Assembly: GCA_021847125.1 (NCBI GenBank)
Contig: JAJZUK010000041.1
Coordinates: forward strand, 1 to 7,829
Length of the DNA stretch: 7,829 bases
Direction: 5' to 3'
Origin: Pseudomonadota bacterium
GTDB taxonomy: Bacteria > Pseudomonadota > Gammaproteobacteria > Burkholderiales > SG8-39
The notes under the pieces: generated by a model
What the model saw: only the letters and a program-made list of their open reading frames with translations
Databases searched by the model: none
What the model was told of the DNA's origin: nothing
Position numbers and translations under genes: made by a program
Part shown: piece after piece, positions 1-7,796 of the stretch
Position numbering within the stretch: the first letter of the stretch is position 1
How the letters are laid out: each line of letters opens with the position of its first letter

Positions 1-1242
1 TTTCTGGCTGGTGAGGCCCTCCAGGCCGACCGGGCCGCGCGCGTGGATTTTGTCGGTGGAAATGCCGATCTCCGCGCCCAGGCCGTATTCGAAGCCGTCG
101 GCGAAGCGCGTCGAGGCGTTGACCATCACCGAACTCGAATCGACTTCGCGCAGGAACCTTTGCGCTTTTGCCTGATCTTCGGTGACGATGGCGTCGGTGT
201 GCGCCGAGCCGTATTTGGCGATGTGTTCCATCGCCTCGTCGATGTCCTTCACCACGCGCACCGCCAGGATGGGCGCGAGATATTCCGCGTACCAGTCGTC
301 CTCGCTCGCGGGTTTGATCGCGGGCACGAGCTTGCGCGAAGCTTCGTCGCCGCGCAGTTCCACGCCCTTGTCGAAATAGATCTTCGCCAGCGGCGGCAGC
401 ACCCGCGCCGCCATGCTTTGCGCCACCAGCAGCGTTTCCATGGTGTTGCAGGTGCCGTAGCGCTGGGTCTTGGCGTTGTCGGCGATGCGTATCGCCTTGT
501 CCGGGTCCGCGGCATCGTCGATGTACACGTGGCACACGCCGTCGAGATGCTTGATCATCGGGATGCGCGACTCCTGCATCACGCGCTCGATCAGGCCCTT
601 GCCGCCGCGCGGCACGATGATGTCCACATACTGGTTCATGCTCAGCAGTTCGCCCACTGCGGCGCGGTCGGCGGTCGCGATCACCTGGATCGCCGTGCGC
701 GGCAGTCCGGCCGCGTCCAGCCCCTCGTGCATGCACGCGGCGATGGCGCGGTTCGCGCGCAGCGCCTCGCTGCCGCCGCGCAGGATGGCGGCGTTGCCCG
801 ACTTCAGGCACAGGCCGGCCGCATCGGCGGTGACGTTGGGGCGCGATTCGTAAATGATGCCGATCACGCCCAGGGGCACGCGCATGCGCCCGACGCGGAT
901 GCCGCTGGGGCGCTCGCGCAGCTCGGTGATGGCGCCGATCGGATCGGCCAGGCGCGCGATCTGCTCCAGGCCCTCGGCCATGTCTTCGATGCCGGCGGGG
1001 GTGAGCGCGAGACGGTCGAGCAGCGCCGGCGCCAGGCCTCGGTCGCGCGCCTCGGCCAGGTCCTGGGCATTGGCCTCGAGCAGCCGGGCGGCGTCGCGCC
1101 GTATCGCGGCGGCGGCTGCGGCGAGCGCGCGGTCCTTGGTCGCGCTGTCGGCGCGCGCGAGCACGCGAGCAGCCGCGCGCGCCTGCTCGCCCACCTGGCG
1201 CATGTAGGCCTTGATGTCCCGGATTTCGGCGACTGCGTTCAT
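1..1242 (-). CDS. proA: Gamma-glutamyl phosphate reductase (3' end cut by window edge)
   Basis: This enzyme makes L-glutamate 5-semialdehyde from gamma-glutamyl phosphate with NADPH, the second step of proline synthesis in the cytoplasm. I read 414 codons without a stop. The family is about 417-425 residues, so only the last few residues lie outside. Aldehyde-dehydrogenase-superfamily motifs are clear: [13 protein letters not shown] at about residues 134-146, [16 protein letters not shown] at about 151-166, [10 protein letters not shown] near 217-226, and the catalytic cysteine in [14 protein letters not shown] (Cys265). HTDAIVTED and [17 protein letters not shown] mark the C-terminal part. 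The start is ATG at 1242, giving [14 protein letters not shown], a length that fits related proteins; the ribosome-binding site is weak. The gene upstream is a toxin-like gene rather than another proline gene, so this is probably a single transcription unit at this end. Identification is secure; only the 3' end is missing. Confidence 0.97.
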
Positions 1243-1389: not shown

Positions 1390-2028
1390 CTATCCCAGTG
1401 CTTTCTTGGTCAGCGTGACGCATTCGTCAAAGCTTCGCCGATAATCGAGAACCTCAAGCGCCGCGAAGGCCTGTTTCAACGCTGCCTCGTGCGAGGCAAT
1501 TCTTTCGAGTATCGGTTCCCGGCGGTCACGCAGGATGGGCTGAATTTTCCAGAGCGCCTTCGGCTCTTTCTCCGCCACCATCGCCAGATCGAAAATGTCT
1601 CGTGCCGTGAATCGATCGCCTCTGTACCAGACTTTCTTGGCGATGATTTCGGACGAGGTCTCCACCTGAATTTCGCGCGCGAACAAGGTCTCGGCAGTCG
1701 TCGCATTTTCCGTTAATGGCGCCGACGCGACGAAATCGATTTCGCCTTCTGCGAAGTTAAGCTTCAGAAACTCAGCCTGTTCGACGTAATCGGAGGTCAG
1801 CGAATCGGCCGTGTCGTTAAGCCGGGGACTCAGGTAAGGCAGACACTGTGGATCGAGCACAAAAATGTCGATGTCCTTACTGAAACGATGCTGATACCGC
1901 CGCATGAGCACGGTGCCGCCGCCGAAGCTCCAGTTGTCGAGCGTAGCCCCGCCGTCGCGGGCCGAATCGATCAGCAGCAGAGCCCGCTGAAACAACGTCT
2001 CCCAGAGCTTCAGGCGGCTTTCATCCAA
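1390..2028 (-). CDS. Short AbiEii/AbiGii-family nucleotidyltransferase toxin
   Basis: This 212-residue protein carries the nucleotidyltransferase signature of the AbiEii family (DUF1814). FGGGTVLMRRY at 35-45 is the glycine motif. SKDIDIF at 50-56 supplies the paired acidic residues D52 and D54. GEIDF at 95-99 gives a probable third carboxylate, D98. EIIAKKVWYRGDRFTARDIFDL at about 127-148 holds the conserved lysines K131/K132 and the R143-D144 pair. AbiEii proteins serve as toxins in type IV toxin-antitoxin/abortive-infection systems, and the related MenA/MenT enzymes add nucleotides to tRNA 3' ends. Classical AbiEii is near 300 residues, so this is a compact form. The start is TTG at 2028, with AAGGA 7 nt upstream; the next in-frame codons upstream reach a stop without an ATG. 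It overlaps the XRE gene by 19 nt, which implies translational coupling. No frameshift or missing catalytic residue is visible. Substrate and activity are inferred from family only. Confidence 0.85.
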   Translation of the reverse strand: MDESRLKLWETLFQRALLLIDSARDGGATLDNWSFGGGTVLMRRYQHRFSKDIDIFVLDPQCLPYLSPRLNDTADSLTSDYVEQAEFLKLNFAEGEIDFVASAPLTENATTAETLFAREIQVETSSEIIAKKVWYRGDRFTARDIFDLAMVAEKEPKALWKIQPILRDRREPILERIASHEAALKQAFAALEVLDYRRSFDECVTLTKKALG

Positions 2029-2507
2029 TTCGCTATCCTTCGCGCGGCGCCGATGTCATGGGCGATCTTCTCCAGGTTCTTCTCCACCCTCCCGGGTTTG
2101 GTCCATTTGCTTGCCTCGTCGACCAAACCCCTCAGCAACGCCGGCGCAGCCTCGTCCAGGAGTGAACGCAGATGCGGATGTTTGCTGGCGGCCAGCTTTC
2201 CCGTGAGCAGTGCGTGGATGAGTTCGTCCTCGGTAAGCTCGATCTTATAGCTTACGTTGGCCGTGGCGCACGCCATGCGGATGAAATCCGGGCGGCGGGT
2301 TTCCGGGGCCGGCTGGACGGCGAGATCGAGGCCCAGCTTTTCGAGGATCGCAAGAACCTTCCTCACGCCCAGATCCGGGAATAAGCCATTCTCCATCTGA
2401 GTCAGCGTAGTCCGGGACAGCCCCGCCGCCTTTGCCAGTTGGGCCTGCGTCAGTTCGCGTTCGAGCCGCGCCCGCCGAATCTCGTAGCCAAGCTCCTGAA
2501 GCCGCAC
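2010..2507 (-). CDS. XRE-family helix-turn-helix protein, likely antitoxin and autorepressor
   Basis: The N-terminal half is a Cro/C1-type helix-turn-helix. With the start used here, LTQAQLAKAAGLSRTTLTQM spans about residues 19-38 and is followed by ENG and a further helical segment (VLAILEKLGLDL). The remaining ~95 residues are a helical, charged tail that I cannot assign to a named domain. Lying directly upstream of, and overlapping, the AbiEii-type gene, it is most likely the antitoxin and the operon's repressor. This differs from the classical AbiEi antitoxin, which has a winged-helix fold. Start choice: GTG at 2507 (165 residues) has GGAG at 6-nt spacing. A TTG at 2519 (169 residues) lies in frame but has no Shine-Dalgarno sequence, and the first stop upstream (2541-2543) excludes any ATG start. 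The promoter and a palindrome lie immediately upstream, which supports autoregulation. Confidence 0.85.
   Translation of the reverse strand: MRLQELGYEIRRARLERELTQAQLAKAAGLSRTTLTQMENGLFPDLGVRKVLAILEKLGLDLAVQPAPETRRPDFIRMACATANVSYKIELTEDELIHALLTGKLAASKHPHLRSLLDEAAPALLRGLVDEASKWTKPGRVEKNLEKIAHDIGAARRIANWMKAA
2036..2040 (-). promoter_or_regulatory. Ribosome-binding site fixing the TTG start of the toxin gene
   Basis: AAGGA on the minus strand sits 7 nt before the TTG at 2028, inside the end of the XRE gene. There is no in-frame ATG near by, so this site decides the toxin start and suggests low, coupled translation. Confidence 0.6.
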
Positions 2508-2513
2508 TTTGGA

Positions 2514-2517
2514 CTCC
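2514..2517 (-). promoter_or_regulatory. Ribosome-binding site favouring the GTG start of the XRE gene
   Basis: GGAG on the minus strand lies 6 nt before GTG at 2507. The alternative TTG at 2519 has only AT-rich sequence before it and itself overlaps this GGAG. Confidence 0.55.
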
Positions 2518-2530
2518 AATATTGTTATAT

Positions 2531-2541
2531 ATGTTAAACAT
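2531..2541. promoter_or_regulatory. Palindrome ATGTTAAACAT, candidate operator of the XRE gene
   Basis: Two perfect 5-bp arms (ATGTT/AACAT) surround a single central base. On the minus strand the palindrome touches the -10 element and covers the expected transcription start, a typical place for autorepression by an XRE antitoxin. A second, looser palindrome (CTGTT-GAT-AACAG, 2570-2582) lies just upstream of the -35 with a similar TGTT/AACA core, about 40 bp away centre to centre. Operator function is inferred. Confidence 0.5.
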
Positions 2542-2567
2542 TATAGCTTACTTGATCGCTTTTTCAA
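2540..2567 (-). promoter_or_regulatory. Sigma70-type promoter of the toxin-antitoxin pair
   Basis: On the minus strand, TTGAAA (2562-2567) and a perfect TATAAT (2540-2545) are separated by 16 bp. The predicted start of transcription is near 2533, about 25 nt before the GTG start of the XRE gene. An inverted repeat CTTGA-N8-TCAAG (2551-2568) overlaps the spacer and -35, and could be a further regulator site. Confidence 0.7.
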
Positions 2568-2628: not shown

Positions 2629-2658
2629 TTGATTTCATCTAAAATACTATAGTACTAT
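2629..2658 (+). promoter_or_regulatory. Possible promoter of the SeqA-N/RAMA-like gene with nested palindromes
   Basis: TTGATT (2629-2634) and TACTAT (2653-2658) are 18 bp apart, each matching consensus at four of six positions. The -10 region is made of two overlapping perfect 10-bp palindromes, TACTATAGTA (2645-2654) and ATAGTACTAT (2649-2658). This could be an operator, perhaps for the protein encoded downstream. The promoter match is modest. Confidence 0.35.
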
Positions 2659-2702
2659 TTTGCTTCCGACTCCCACAAGCTCAAGCTGCGAGTGCGCTGA
2701 CC

Positions 2703-3095
2703 ATGAGAACCATTGAAGTCGATTTCGACGTGTACAAGGCCCTGACTGTGCGCCGCCCGTCCGAGGACGTCACGGAAAATGACGTTCTGCGCGAATTGCT
2801 CGGTCTTCCCCGAAGCAGCAAGTCCATCCCTGCGGCGAATGCTCCCGCTCCGGGCGACTGGGTCACTAAAGGCGTTCGATTTCCAGCCGGAACAGAGTTC
2901 CGGGCAAACTACAAGGGCCAAACTTATCTTGGGCGCGTCGTCAGTGGGGCGCTCGTGCTGAGCGGCGCGCGTTTCGATACGCCCTCGGCGGCGGCAATGT
3001 CGATAACGAGAAATCCCGTCAACGGCTGGACCTTCTGGGAATGTAGAATGCCTGGCCGCGCGTCCTGGCAGATACTCAAGGCGCTGCGCAAGTGA
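2703..3095 (+). CDS. SeqA-N-like ribbon-helix-helix protein with RAMA-like domain
   Basis: A 130-residue protein with two parts. Residues 1-35 (MRTIEVDFDVYKAL, then helices through ENDVLRELLGL) resemble the N-terminal ribbon-helix-helix segment of SeqA, which in SeqA drives dimer and filament formation. A polar, proline-rich linker runs from about 36 to 56. Residues 57-128 match the RAMA-like pattern: FPAGTEFRANYKGQTY, then a beta strand pair, then TPSAAAMSI (93-101) and NGWTFWECR (107-115), ending in a W...L..LR helix. RAMA (restriction enzyme adenine methylase associated) domains are predicted, from computational studies, to recognise modified DNA bases. I therefore infer an oligomerising DNA-modification reader or regulator; this is untested. 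ATG at 2703 is the only usual start codon between the upstream in-frame stop (2640) and the domain, although its Shine-Dalgarno is poor. It is divergent from the XRE/AbiEii pair, which suggests shared regulation or function. DUF2924-like proteins are a possible alternative relative. Confidence 0.75.
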   Translation: MRTIEVDFDVYKALTVRRPSEDVTENDVLRELLGLPRSSKSIPAANAPAPGDWVTKGVRFPAGTEFRANYKGQTYLGRVVSGALVLSGARFDTPSAAAMSITRNPVNGWTFWECRMPGRASWQILKALRK

Positions 3096-3154: not shown

Positions 3155-3568
3155 TCACCCGACAACCGTAACCACCACCCGCCGCAATTGCGCGCCGGTA
3201 CGGTGCTCCCACAGATAGATCCCCTGCCAGGTGCCGAGCAGCAGTTCGCCGTTCCCGACCGGCACGCTCACCGAAGTTCCGGCGAGCAGGCTGCGCGCAT
3301 GCGCGGCCATGTCGTCATCGCCTTCGGTGTCATGCCGGTAATCCGGGTCGGCATCCGGCGCCCAGCGCGCGGCCAGCGTCTCGAGGTCGCGGCGCACCGC
3401 CGGGTCGGCGTTCTCGGTGATCATCACCGCGCAACTCGTGTGCTGCACGAACACCTGCGCGATGCCGGTCGCGATCGCCGCCGCACGCACGGCGCGCGCG
3501 ACCTCGGCGGTGATGTCCGTCGTGCCGCGGCCGCGGGTGCGAATCTCGAAAAACTGCTGCTGGCTCAT
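3155..3568 (-). CDS. yjbQ: YjbQ/UPF0047 family protein (secondary thiamine-phosphate synthase type)
   Basis: The 137 residues match the full single-domain YjbQ family, usually about 130-140 residues. Conserved segments appear in order: VQHTSCAVMITENADPAVRRDLE (split here as H43-T44-S45 and E52-N53, D55), the acidic HDTEGDDDMAAH stretch with H79, D84-D86 and H90, and the GELLLGTWQGIYLWEHR block (107-123), with TWQ as the hallmark. Members of this family show weak thiamine-phosphate synthase activity and can suppress thiE defects, but the physiological role is unsettled. The protein should be soluble and cytoplasmic, forming a trimer with metal-binding histidines in known relatives. The start is ATG at 3568, with AAGGA nearly abutting it and no better upstream start in frame. 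It is divergent from the cupin gene and convergent with the SeqA-N/RAMA-like gene, so it is probably expressed alone. No thiamine genes are near by. Confidence 0.93.
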   Translation of the reverse strand: MSQQQFFEIRTRGRGTTDITAEVARAVRAAAIATGIAQVFVQHTSCAVMITENADPAVRRDLETLAARWAPDADPDYRHDTEGDDDMAAHARSLLAGTSVSVPVGNGELLLGTWQGIYLWEHRTGAQLRRVVVTVVG

Positions 3569-3634: not shown

Positions 3635-3661
3635 AAGTGCGTCTACGGACATCAACCCAAT

Positions 3662-3666
3662 GGAGG
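3662..3666 (+). promoter_or_regulatory. Strong ribosome-binding site favouring a TTG start for the cupin gene
   Basis: GGAGG lies 5 nt before TTG at 3672. The ATG at 3660 overlaps this very sequence and has no Shine-Dalgarno of its own, so the TTG is the better start. Confidence 0.6.
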
Positions 3667-3671
3667 CCAGA

Positions 3672-3953
3672 TTGACACAGGCAACAGCGACGGTTCAGAT
3701 CGACAACGAGCGGGTAGCGGTGACCGAATGGAAATTTGCGCCGGGGGCCGAAACCGGCTGGCATCGCCATCAATACGACTATGTGGTGGTGCCGCAGACC
3801 AGCGGCAAACTGCTGCTGAAAACCAAGGATGGCGACAGCGTGAGCGAACTTGCCAGCGGGAAATCGTACTTTCGCAAGGCCGGGGTCGAGCACAATGTGA
3901 TCAACGCCAGCGGCGGCGAGTTCGTGTTCATTGAAATCGAGTTGAAAACCTGA
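3672..3953 (+). CDS. Small single-domain cupin, probable metal-binding protein
   Basis: A 93-residue single-domain cupin when started at TTG 3672 (97 residues from ATG 3660). Cupin motif 1 is seen in WKFAPGAETGWHRHQYDYVVVP: numbering from the TTG start gives H31 and H33, with Y37 near the metal. Motif 2 is YFRKAGVEHNVIN, with H74 as the third histidine ligand. The usual motif-1 glutamate position is taken by D36/Y37, as in many short cupins of this type, some of which are found with beta-alanine or amino-acid breakdown genes. The reaction is unknown; a small metal-dependent enzyme or a ligand-sensing cupin are both possible. There is no signal peptide, so it is cytoplasmic. It stands alone on the plus strand, divergent from yjbQ and convergent with the ABC transporter operon; no operon partner points to its substrate. 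Confidence 0.85.
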   Translation: MTQATATVQIDNERVAVTEWKFAPGAETGWHRHQYDYVVVPQTSGKLLLKTKDGDSVSELASGKSYFRKAGVEHNVINASGGEFVFIEIELKT

Positions 3954-4040: not shown

Positions 4041-5273
4041 TTACTTCCGCTGCGCGAAAGCCGGCACCGGATAGACCGGCTTGGCCGTGGCCACGGGCGG
4101 CGGATACACCACCTCCAGGCCGTTGGGCAGGGTCTGGATCACGGCGAACTCGTTCTTGAGCTGCTTCCCGGTGTCGTCGATCTGGTATTCGCCGGTGACG
4201 GTGACGATCTTGCCGCTCAGCTTGACCGCCGCGTCCTTCAGCTTGGCCGCATCGAGGGACTGCGCGCTATTGATGATCGCTTCGGTGATCACGCCGGCGC
4301 CGTAGGCGAGCGCGGTCTGGAAATCGGCCGGGAATTTCGCGTTCGGGAAGAGCTTGTTATAGCGCTCTATCATCTGCGCCCGGTTCAATCCCTGCGTCAC
4401 CTTCCAGTTGATCTTGTCGTGCAGCAGGGTCTCGCTGAAGACGTAGTGGCCGTCCTTGCCCGCCTGCTGCAGGAATTGCGGCTGCGAGCCATAGAACAGC
4501 ACCACCGCCTTGAAGTCCGCGTTGGACTCGCGGATCTGGCGCGCGATGGTCATCTGGTCGCCCTCGTACGCGGTCGGATAGAACGCTTCCGCGCCGCTCG
4601 CCTTGGCCTTCTGGATCAGAATGTTGAAATCCTTGGTGCCCTTGGCGAATTTCTCGTCCATGGTGACTTGCATGCCGAGCTGCTTCGCCAGATCGATCGC
4701 GCCCTGCGTCAGCGCGGCCGGGAACGGCTCGTCCAGATAGGCGAAGGCGATCTTCTTCACGCCCATGGCGTGCAGCGCGCGCACCGGCGGCTGGCCGAGC
4801 AGCGAGCCGGCTTGCTGCGTCGCCGAGACGATGTATTTGTACCCCTGCTTGTACAGCGCGTCGGCCGAGGCGGACCAGATCACCAGAAACTTGCCGGCGG
4901 TCTCGGTGGCATTGGCTGCCGTCTGGGTCAAGGTCGAGCCGAACGGTCCGAACAGCAGATCGGCGTGCTCGTCCTTGATCAGGGTTTCGTACACCCGGGG
5001 CACCAGCGCCTTGTCGCTGCGGTCGTCGAGCTTGACCAGCTCGACCTTGCGCTTCTTGCCGCCGATGTCTATGCCGCCGCGGCTGTTGACGTCGTCGACC
5101 CAGATTTCGACGCCGCGCTGGCCCGACTGCGCCTGGAGCGCGAACGTGCCGGCAGAGGATACGGTCATGCCGATGCGTATCGGCTTGTCCGCTTGCGCTG
5201 CGGCTGTGCCCGTCCACAGTGTGGCGAGCAGCGCCGGCGCGGCGAGCGCGAGCAGGAATGATCTGCGTTGCAT
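4041..5273 (-). CDS. LivJ/LivK-type periplasmic binding protein of an ABC transporter
   Basis: This 410-residue protein is the periplasmic receptor that delivers ligand to the LivH/G/F-type complex encoded just upstream. Residues 1-28 form a signal peptide: MQRRSFLLAL, a hydrophobic stretch, and AQA before D29. The RRSFL sequence also resembles a twin-arginine motif, so Sec or Tat export are both possible. The mature part starts DKPIRIGMTVSSAGTFA, typical of type I (Leu/Ile/Val-binding-protein-like) receptors, with VNSRGGIDIGGKKRKVELV and FGPFGSTLTQTAANA (about 114-128) as family landmarks. The start is ATG at 5273 because GAGGAG lies 7 nt upstream; the frame is open farther, but that extension precedes the signal peptide and is rejected. 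It is the last gene of the operon, separated by 144 nt that includes a hairpin. The ligand cannot be read from the sequence: branched-chain amino acids, other amino acids, amides/urea and aromatic acids are all known for this family. Confidence 0.92.
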   Translation of the reverse strand: MQRRSFLLALAAPALLATLWTGTAAAQADKPIRIGMTVSSAGTFALQAQSGQRGVEIWVDDVNSRGGIDIGGKKRKVELVKLDDRSDKALVPRVYETLIKDEHADLLFGPFGSTLTQTAANATETAGKFLVIWSASADALYKQGYKYIVSATQQAGSLLGQPPVRALHAMGVKKIAFAYLDEPFPAALTQGAIDLAKQLGMQVTMDEKFAKGTKDFNILIQKAKASGAEAFYPTAYEGDQMTIARQIRESNADFKAVVLFYGSQPQFLQQAGKDGHYVFSETLLHDKINWKVTQGLNRAQMIERYNKLFPNAKFPADFQTALAYGAGVITEAIINSAQSLDAAKLKDAAVKLSGKIVTVTGEYQIDDTGKQLKNEFAVIQTLPNGLEVVYPPPVATAKPVYPVPAFAQRK

Positions 5274-5303
5274 AAGTGTTCTCCTCGATAGTTTATTGAT
5301 TAT

Positions 5304-5321
5304 GCGGGGATTGCTCCCCGC
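5304..5321 (-). other. Strong hairpin between livF-type and binding-protein genes
   Basis: GCGGGGA (5304-5310) and TCCCCGC (5315-5321) form a perfect 7-bp stem with a 4-nt loop. On the minus strand it lies 18 nt before the GAGGAG ribosome-binding site of the binding-protein gene and is followed by AU-rich, not U-only, sequence. It could protect the 5' end of a processed binding-protein mRNA or partly terminate after the livF-type gene. I found no convincing promoter in the 144-nt gap (5274-5417); TAGAAT (minus, 5358-5363 region) lacks a -35. Confidence 0.45.
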
Positions 5322-5417
5322 CCGCTGCCTCTGCACCAACCTCTTGTAAAATCGATTCTACCTCTGCTGCCTGCTGCGAGTATCGGAGCCGCTTGCAGCG
5401 CCGCCGACGCCGGCCCC

Positions 5418-6192
5418 TTACGCGTCGATGCGGTAATCCACCCATTCGGCGATCAGGCTGCGCAAATCGGCGTCGCTGGTAAAGTCGCCGACCGAACCGT
5501 CCACCTTGTTGCGCCCGAGTTCGAGCACGTAGACATGGTCCGCAATGCGCACGCATTGGCGCACGTTCTGGTCCACCAGCAGCACGGTGATCCCGCGCGC
5601 CGGCAAACCATGGATGAATTCGTAGATCTCCGCCGCCAGCTTGGGCGCGATCATCGCCGTCGGCTCGTCGAGCAGGATCGCGCGCGGCTGCAGCGCGAGC
5701 GCGCGGCCGAGCTCGAGGAAGCGCTGCTGGCCGCCGCTCATCGCGCCGGCCGCGTGCTGGCGGCGCTCCTTGAGCATCGGAAACTGCTCGTAGGCGCGCG
5801 CCAGCGCATCCGCGACGCGCGCCTTGTCCTTGCGGAACGACCAGCAGGCGAGGCGCAGATTGTCCTCGACGGTCAATTCGTTGAACAGGCTGCGGCCTTG
5901 CGGCACCAGCGCGATGCCGCGTTCGATGAAACGCCAGGGCTTCATGCCGGTGACCACCTCGCCGTCGATCAGCACCTCGCCTGCGACCGGTTTCAGCAGG
6001 CCGTAGAGCGCGCGCAGCGCCGTCGACTTGCCGGCGCCGTTGGGCCCGATCACGCCGGTGATGCTGCCCGGACGCACGGCCAGCGACACGCCCTGCAGGA
6101 TGCGGATGTCGCCGTGGTAGGCCACGTCGACCGCGCGCAGCTCGAGGACCGGCTGCCGATCCGGTCTGCTGTCCGCGGCGGCGCCCACGCGC

Positions 6193-6203
<11 letters not shown>
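5418..6203 (-). CDS. livF: LivF-type ABC transporter ATP-binding protein
   Basis: One of two ATPases that power the branched-chain-amino-acid-type importer at the cytoplasmic membrane face. It is 261 residues, a little longer than the usual ~235 because of a ~17-residue hydrophilic N-terminal extension. Seen in order: A-loop Y29, Walker A GPNGAGKST at 53-61, Q-loop Q102 (ALVPQGRSLFNELTVEDNL, the LivF-type segment), signature MSGGQ at 155-159, Walker B AILLDEP with D179 and E180. The switch region reads VLLVDQN, with Gln where most ABC ATPases have His; LivF proteins normally have VEQN there. The stretch after Walker B is PTAMIAPKL, where LivF usually has GLAP. The start is TTG at 6203, backed by GGAGG 6 nt upstream. 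It overlaps the livG-type gene by 11 nt, showing a coupled operon. The LivF assignment over LivG rests on the VPQGR and VDQN segments. Confidence 0.92.
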
Positions 6204-6914
<711 letters not shown>

Positions 6915-6918
<4 letters not shown>

Positions 6919-7796
6919 CGCTGCACCCGCCAGCCGAGCAGGCCCGTGGGCCGGATCAGGATGGTGCCGACCAGAATGGCGAAGCCGACGATCTGCGCCA
7001 GCGCCTGCGGCAGGAACACCGTGGCGAGCTGCTCGGCGAGGCCGTAGAGGATGCCGGCGATCAAGGCGCCGATCGGATTGCCCAGCCCGCCCAGCACCAC
7101 CACGATGAAGCCGATGATGGAATACTCCGCACCCGAAAAGGCGTTGAACGCCGGAAACACCAGTGCGATCAGCACGCCGGTCACGCCGGCCAGGCCGGTG
7201 GCGAGCGCGAAGGCGAAGGCGGAGAGCTTGTCCACGTCGACGCCGACGATCTGTATCGCCTCGCGGTTCATGATGGTGGCGCGCAGCGCCTTGCCGGGAA
7301 GCGTGCGATACAGAAACCAGGCCAGGGCCAGCGAGATCACCAGGGTGACGCCGAAGGCGACGATGCGCGCCGTCGACACGTAGATGGCCCCGACTTTCAT
7401 CGAGATCGGCGTGAAGGCGTAATCGATGGAGCGCGAATCCGCCTCGAAGATCAGCAGCATCACCGCGGCCAGCGCAATCGACAGGCCGTACATCATGAGG
7501 AAGGACATGGACTCCGGATCGTCGCTACGCGCGAGCCGGGGGATCAGCAGGTAATAAGAGGCCCAGCCGGCCGCGAAAAACGTCAGCGCCGCGACGGGCA
7601 GCGCCGCGAGCGGCGGAATGCCCAGGCTGTGGAACAGCACATAGGCGAGAAACGAGCCGCCGATGACGAACTCGCCGTGGGCGAAATTGACGATGCGCAG
7701 CACCCCATAGAGCAGGGTCAGGCTCAGACCGATCAGCGCATACACGCCGCCGACGATCAGGCCGTTGATCAAACCGTTGAGGACGAGGATTTCCAT
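6915..7796 (-). CDS. livH: LivH-type ABC transporter permease
   Basis: An inner-membrane permease subunit of the importer, 293 residues, the normal LivH length. The N-terminal block is characteristic: NGLINGLIVGGVYALIGLSL (7-26), then LLYGVLRIVNFAHGE with R34, N37 and H40. About eight hydrophobic membrane segments follow, including those near 45-80, 97-116, 140-165, 190-215 and 220-250. The cytoplasmic coupling loop lies around RTLPGKALRATIMNREAIQI (about 169-188), where the family contacts the ATPases, and GLGNPIGALIAGILYG (about 238-253) is another conserved stretch. ATG at 7796 has only a weak ribosome-binding site, but the preceding gene ends 9 nt before it, so coupled translation is likely. 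The partner permease LivM is not between this gene and the ATPase genes, unlike the common H-M-G-F order. Confidence 0.94.

Follow-up and report, generated by a model that had tools for sequence, protein, structure and literature searches.

The window analyzed here comprises 7,829 nucleotides (positions 1 to 7,829 of contig JAJZUK010000041.1, from a Pseudomonadota bacterium of lineage SG8-39, Burkholderiales) and contains a gene (2703..3095, forward strand) for a 130-residue protein, designated RR, in which a ribbon-helix-helix (RHH) domain resembling the N terminus of SeqA is joined to a RAMA domain. The RR gene is divergent from a gene for an XRE/HipB-type helix-turn-helix protein, which in turn is overlapped by a gene for an AbiEii-family nucleotidyltransferase. 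RR is probably an autorepressor, dimerized through its RHH domain and bound to DNA through its RAMA domain, that was recruited once as the third component of an XRE-AbiEii cassette. The initial annotation, which described RR as a possible SeqA analogue with a different reader module, missed the main point, namely, the divergent pairing with an antitoxin-type (XRE) and a toxin-type (AbiEii) gene. In the open-licence literature searched, no description of the RHH-RAMA architecture or of the three-gene cassette was found.

A survey of RR loci yielded 47, of which 41 were left after six (L022, L024, L027, L032, L068, and L071), fragments or a duplicate, had been set aside. XRE lies divergently beside RR in 23 of the 41 loci but not in the other 18, some of which have short upstream flanks (L018 and L070). 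The gap between RR and XRE in the cassettes is 109 to 197 bp, measured between tblastn ends. Three cassettes deviate in the AbiEii gene, which is absent from L007, broken into two frames in L002, and affected by a contig end that cuts L061. L002 and L007 retain RR and the antitoxin-type gene but have no intact toxin gene. The genes flanking the cassette differ between most loci, with L001 lying at the same site as the window.

The 23 cassette RR proteins form one side of a single branch of the RR tree (support of 97/92, and 98% of 200 bootstrap trees), although bootstrap values were still short of full convergence and the tree has long branches, mostly among solo loci. None of 500 shuffles gave a clustering value as low as that of the cassette proteins. 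Pairwise distances over 20 loci were correlated between RR and XRE (0.89), RR and AbiEii (0.90), and XRE and AbiEii (0.83), although shared host descent would also produce such correlations in part. In a set of 399 genomes, RR was present in 16, comprising 10 cassette copies (that of G005 lacking AbiEii), 4 solo genes, and 2 fragments. AbiEii relatives were likewise present in 16 of the 399 genomes; all nine with at least 60% identity (that of G612 being split over two contigs) are accompanied by RR, and none of the seven with 52% identity or less has it. AbiEii relatives were also present in 157 plasmid records, and the five XRE-AbiEii pairs examined among these showed no RR within 2.5 kb. 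The best-supported account of these data is that RR was recruited once as the third gene of the XRE-AbiEii cassette.

A putative RR operator consisting of 8-bp boxes, AAAATACTATAGTACTATTTT, is located at 2641..2661 (forward strand, boundaries set by eye) over the presumed RR promoter. The putative −35 element, TTGATT (2629..2634, forward strand), and the putative −10 element, TACTAT (2653..2658, forward strand, inside the operator), were identified by eye only, and the consensus scan reported neither; in several relatives, TTGACA stands where the window has this −35 element. The window operator has two mismatches to the general pattern (shuffle p of 0.01). Of 29 regions upstream of RR genes, 17 contain that pattern, ATAGNNCTATAGNNCTAT, with two mismatches or fewer, and six loci (L004, L006, L008, L010, L012, and L015) have variant AGTCT/AGACT-like boxes instead. 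In the same comparison, the operator was weak in L021 and L029 and was not found upstream in L023, L026, L030, and L031; of the loci added later and judged by eye, most show it and L072 does not. The six variant-box loci constitute one clade, in which the boxes were swapped with the 8-bp period kept and five positions of the RR protein differ in a fixed manner. Self-identity of the upstream regions at a lag of 8 bp (27 loci) was 0.65 in both operator groups, compared with 0.41 and 0.38 at this lag in control stretches and 0.36 to 0.54 upstream at the remaining lags between 5 and 13, although the control stretches themselves reach 0.65 at lag 11 in the group of six. In addition, the intergenic regions of the 23 cassettes contain 44 AGNNCT sites, compared with 11.4 expected.

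Of 16 genomes scanned in full, 10 contain a single site with no more than one mismatch, in each case immediately upstream of the RR gene. Of the remaining six, three have variant boxes, L023 lacks a site, and L016 and L017 match when two mismatches are allowed; at that tolerance, the pattern was no more common than its reversed control in the 16 genomes. A single close site per genome at the RR promoter suggests local autoregulation. Solo RR copies in alphaproteobacteria and on a viral contig are likewise preceded by the operator, which indicates that it belongs to RR rather than to the toxin-antitoxin pair. The natural inference is that RR would repress its own gene through this putative operator. 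The likely DNA target of RR is a tandem 8-bp repeat at its promoter, of which each genome has a single close copy, rather than a dispersed GATC-type mark. On the viral contigs L025 and L026, a solo RR lies on the opposite strand between genes that are presumably phage structural genes, in a moron-like arrangement; L025 has the full operator and L026 lacks it.

The XRE-AbiEii pair has control elements of its own. A consensus scan detected a promoter on the reverse strand with a −35 element, TTGAAA (2562..2567), and a −10 element, TATAAT (2540..2545), which together match the consensus at 11 of 12 positions. A putative XRE operator of the TGT-N12-ACA palindrome type (2523..2540, reverse strand) overlaps this promoter. 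The same palindrome type precedes XRE in all 10 RR-less pairs with upstream sequence, the eleventh pair being cut by a contig end, which suggests that XRE can probably regulate its own operon without RR; if XRE regulates alone, RR should add something else. Within the cassettes, the palindrome is present in 13 of 23 loci and incomplete in the other 10 (L002 to L004, L006, L008, L010, L012, L014, L015, and L059), which include all six variant-box loci. As a guess, RR may have taken over part of the palindrome's work in these 10 cassettes.

The palindrome, present at XRE genes with or without RR, also bears on the view that RR is a mobile gene in its own right, self-regulated, merely linked to the pair, and without effect on it. 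The 18 solo RR genes, many of which share the operator type, are consistent with such a passenger. However, confinement of the cassette proteins to one clade, joint inheritance in varied flanks, and retention of RR in every genome with a close AbiEii relative exceed what would be expected of an idle passenger, and the XRE palindrome is partly lost in 10 of 23 cassettes but kept in all of the RR-less pairs. A passenger role is rather unlikely.

From about 5.8 billion proteins, 1,617 RR relatives were retrieved at E values of ≤1e-3; their sources annotate them as hypothetical, as DUF2924 or DUF4357 domain-containing, or, once, as "predicted CopG family antitoxin." The best 120 of the 1,617 cover 99 to 100% of the query, which indicates that the two halves of RR belong together and are no chance join. 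RR is rare, being present in 5 of 369 genomes of one set and in the above-mentioned 16 of 399, counts that include the genomes used as centers. Plasmid proteins annotated as DUF2924/DUF4357 (L028, L029, and L032) are related to RR over 98 to 100% of its length with 45 to 59% identity but differ in being encoded by solo genes without an XRE-AbiEii pair. RR consists of an acidic SeqA-N-like RHH domain (residues 1 to 35; 2703..2807, forward strand), a variable linker (residues 36 to 52; 2808..2858) in which the two operator groups share 22% identity, and a RAMA domain (residues 53 to 130; 2859..3092) containing S95, N107, and W109. The net charge is −2 over residues 1 to 38 and +9 over residues 53 to 130, a split that suits a dimerizer plus a DNA binder, and the RHH domain is likely a dimerization module.

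The proposed resemblance of the first 35 or so residues to the SeqA RHH domain was borne out, as the best match in the PDB was SeqA-N by both profile (E value of 0.0048) and predicted fold. The N-terminal 35 residues share 31% identity and the same helices with Escherichia coli SeqA (PDB 1xrx and 3fmt), superimposing at 1.3 Å; the Pfam SeqA_N match reached 14.3 bits against a cutoff of 23 and spanned residues 1 to 12 only. The C-terminal domain differs, as Pfam scans of RR gave no match to the hemimethylated-GATC domain of SeqA and this part has a RAMA fold instead. SeqA targets hemimethylated GATC, whereas RR has a single local candidate operator. According to passages of PMC6225831, SeqA has the same layout of oligomerization domain, linker, and DNA-binding domain, and it oligomerizes through Thr18, Ile21, and Ala25. 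These filament residues are replaced in RR by R18 (62 of 63 sequences), E21 (60 of 63), and E25 (55 of 63). The idea of a SeqA analogue with a different reader holds for the two-domain architecture and the charge split but not for the oligomerization residues, nor is GATC or GANTC enriched at the cassettes. A SeqA-like organizer that binds many modified sites across the chromosome and forms filaments would agree with the shared layout and with SeqA-N being the nearest PDB relative in sequence and fold; the replaced residues, the single close operator site per genome, and the rarity of RR make it highly improbable.

Matches to RHH antitoxin-type families were also obtained, with 19 of 26 N termini matching VAPB_antitox (PF02697; best E value of 6.4e-5) and 2 of 26 matching DUF7557 (PF24434). 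Families of this type have a toxin-binding tail, whereas RR shares their N-terminal RHH domain but carries a RAMA domain in place of that tail. The VAPB_antitox matches favor a different division of labor, in which RR is a classical repressor whose RHH ribbon reads the 8-bp boxes in the manner of MetJ and whose RAMA domain is a nonspecific backbone clamp. Repressors of the MetJ type use tandem boxes, the 8-bp period would suit RHH dimers arranged side by side, and a conserved repeat at the gene's own promoter, as in DNA-binding RHH repressors, precedes RR (17 of 29 regions plus the six with variant boxes). However, the ribbons of DNA-binding RHH proteins of the MetJ/Arc/CopG kind are basic or polar, and outward residues of this character were not found in RR, for which the outward positions were assigned by inference: the domain is acidic, and position 5 of the ribbon is E in 56 and D in 6 of 63 sequences. 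The phosphate binding described for the CcrM RAMA domain in a passage of PMC6787082 would agree with a backbone clamp, and the documented role of SeqA-N, the nearest relative, in oligomerization (PMC6225831) speaks against a DNA-reading ribbon. Overall, a ribbon-reading repressor is a substantial possibility that falls somewhat short of an even chance.

The remainder of RR was confirmed as RAMA-like. The window protein matches the RAMA profile PF18755 with an E value of 4.5e-7 but falls below the Pfam gathering cutoff (30.2 versus 35.2 bits), so that the profile comparison upholds the assignment without passing the formal limit. Among relatives, the cutoff is passed by L017 (43.6 bits), L019 (41.6 bits), and L020 (47.5 bits) and not by L016, L018, L021, and L023; PF18755 is assigned to all of the best 120 of the 1,617 relatives in the database's precomputed Pfam annotation. 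A RAMA-like fold is claimed for RR nonetheless, since the gathering cutoff is a curation threshold and not a structural feature. Structure prediction gave the expected combination of an RHH and a RAMA fold, with MPND (7ydw and 7ydt) and CcrM (6pbd) as the best PDB matches of residues 54 to 130. RR shares with these proteins the RAMA fold and the S...NGW order of phosphate-contact residues, its S95, N107, and W109 occurring in the same order as S315, N330, and W332 of CcrM, but it is a 130-residue protein with an RHH domain and has neither a methyltransferase nor an MPN domain.

Published data on the reading of modified DNA by RAMA domains conflict. Some published passages suggest RAMA domains as readers of N6-methyladenine (6mA) (PMC11037411) and speak of them as known to recognize modified bases (PMC12839542), whereas others report that the CcrM RAMA domain contacts DNA phosphates and that CcrM with hemimethylated DNA looked the same (PMC6787082) and that an earlier 6mA preference of MPND was not reproduced (PMC9963953). 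Restriction-modification (RM) or DNA methyltransferase genes were found near RR in 8 of the 41 loci, whose flanks were incompletely scanned, namely, five cassettes (L007, L009, L012, L015, and L067) and three solo loci (L021, L029, and the phage locus L031). In 4 of 24 genomes (G005, G006, G010, and G766), an N6_Mtase match lies no more than about 10 kb from RR, compared with 0.23 expected (P of about 1e-4). This is an enrichment, yet a minority pattern that shared genomic islands explain equally well; methylase neighbors, for which the initial annotation proposed a survey, are more frequent than by chance, but the conserved neighbor is the XRE-AbiEii pair. Neither GATC nor GANTC is enriched in the intergenic regions that RR and XRE share in the 23 cassettes. 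CCWGG occurs there 8 times versus 2.8 expected, in 7 of the 23, which may come from related sequences. The solo RR relative of L029, on a Rhizobium plasmid, adjoins a type I RM methylase/specificity pair, and that of L031, in Rhizobium phage RHph_X2_26, adjoins a phage DNA adenine methylase.

These observations bear on a modification-gated cassette, in which the RAMA domain would sense modified bases on phage or host DNA and pull RR off its operator or onto the cassette, triggering the pair. The suggested 6mA reading and the methylase neighbors favor this scheme; the lack of a close methylase in most loci, the window included, the MPND and CcrM results, the nonenrichment of GATC and GANTC, and the absence of a fixed methylation site seen in the operator speak against it, and RM proximity may reflect only shared islands. 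Gating is improbable, and equally so is its boldest form, a three-gene system in which an RHH-dimerized RAMA protein would read the chemical state of DNA and signal it to XRE-AbiEii by way of their common intergenic region. If this were true, foreign modified DNA or the loss of host marks would release a nucleotidyltransferase toxin whose target, judged by homology, is tRNA.

In the preferred reading, of an RHH-dimerized autorepressor, the SeqA-N-like domain would pair two RR chains, and the strongly basic RAMA domains, alone or together with the RHH ribbon, would grip the tandem 8-bp boxes over RR's own promoter and thereby shut off its transcription. The RR gene would have been captured once, in one clade, beside an XRE-AbiEii operon, from which it is divergent, and would since have moved and been inherited with the pair as a three-gene cassette. 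XRE would most likely be the antitoxin and the autorepressor of the toxin operon, given that its palindrome type occurs in pairs without RR, and RR most likely contributes another DNA-binding input at the intergenic region between the two, one that would tune or gate the cassette. A growth-control system of a known kind may in this way have gained a DNA-binding input. With RR as a conserved, DNA-binding third member in a family of XRE-AbiEii toxin-antitoxin pairs, the question arises of whether such pairs respond to the state of DNA. At 130 residues and with a candidate natural DNA site, RR also offers a small test case for RAMA recognition, in contrast to the CcrM and MPND structures, which showed backbone contacts.

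The XRE protein (2010..2519, reverse strand), the predicted antitoxin and autoregulator, was identified by its HTH_3 match; judging from its relatives, translation may begin a few codons into the open reading frame, and its nearest NCBIfam model is of the Y4mF/HipB type, under the cutoff. The predicted toxin (1390..2028, reverse strand) matches the AbiEii family PF08843 with an E value of 4.7e-18 (66.4 bits versus a cutoff of 22.5) and contains the motif GGGTVLMRRYQHRFSKDIDIF. The GG...DID catalytic motif of AbiEii/DUF1814 nucleotidyltransferases is described in a passage of PMC3985639, and a GG...DhD motif occurs in 20 of the 23 cassette loci, the other three lacking that part or having it truncated. 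The type IV AbiE toxin-antitoxin system, as far as described there, likewise has such a nucleotidyltransferase gene downstream of a regulator gene and inverted repeats in its promoter. The window locus differs in its divergent third gene, RR, and in its partner, as no winged-helix antitoxin of the AbiEi type (COG5340) was found there and the partner is the XRE/HipB-type HTH_3 protein.

The remaining genes of the window, assigned by family matches and partly by eye, lie at 3155 to 3568 (reverse strand), 3660 to 3953 (forward strand), and 4041 to 7796 (reverse strand). They include those for a YjbQ-type UPF0047 protein, a cupin, and a periplasmic binding protein, together with transport genes that by eye resemble those of branched-chain amino acid ABC systems. 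The UPF0047 and cupin genes, as well as an aldehyde dehydrogenase family gene (1 to 1242, reverse strand), also flank the cassette in L001.
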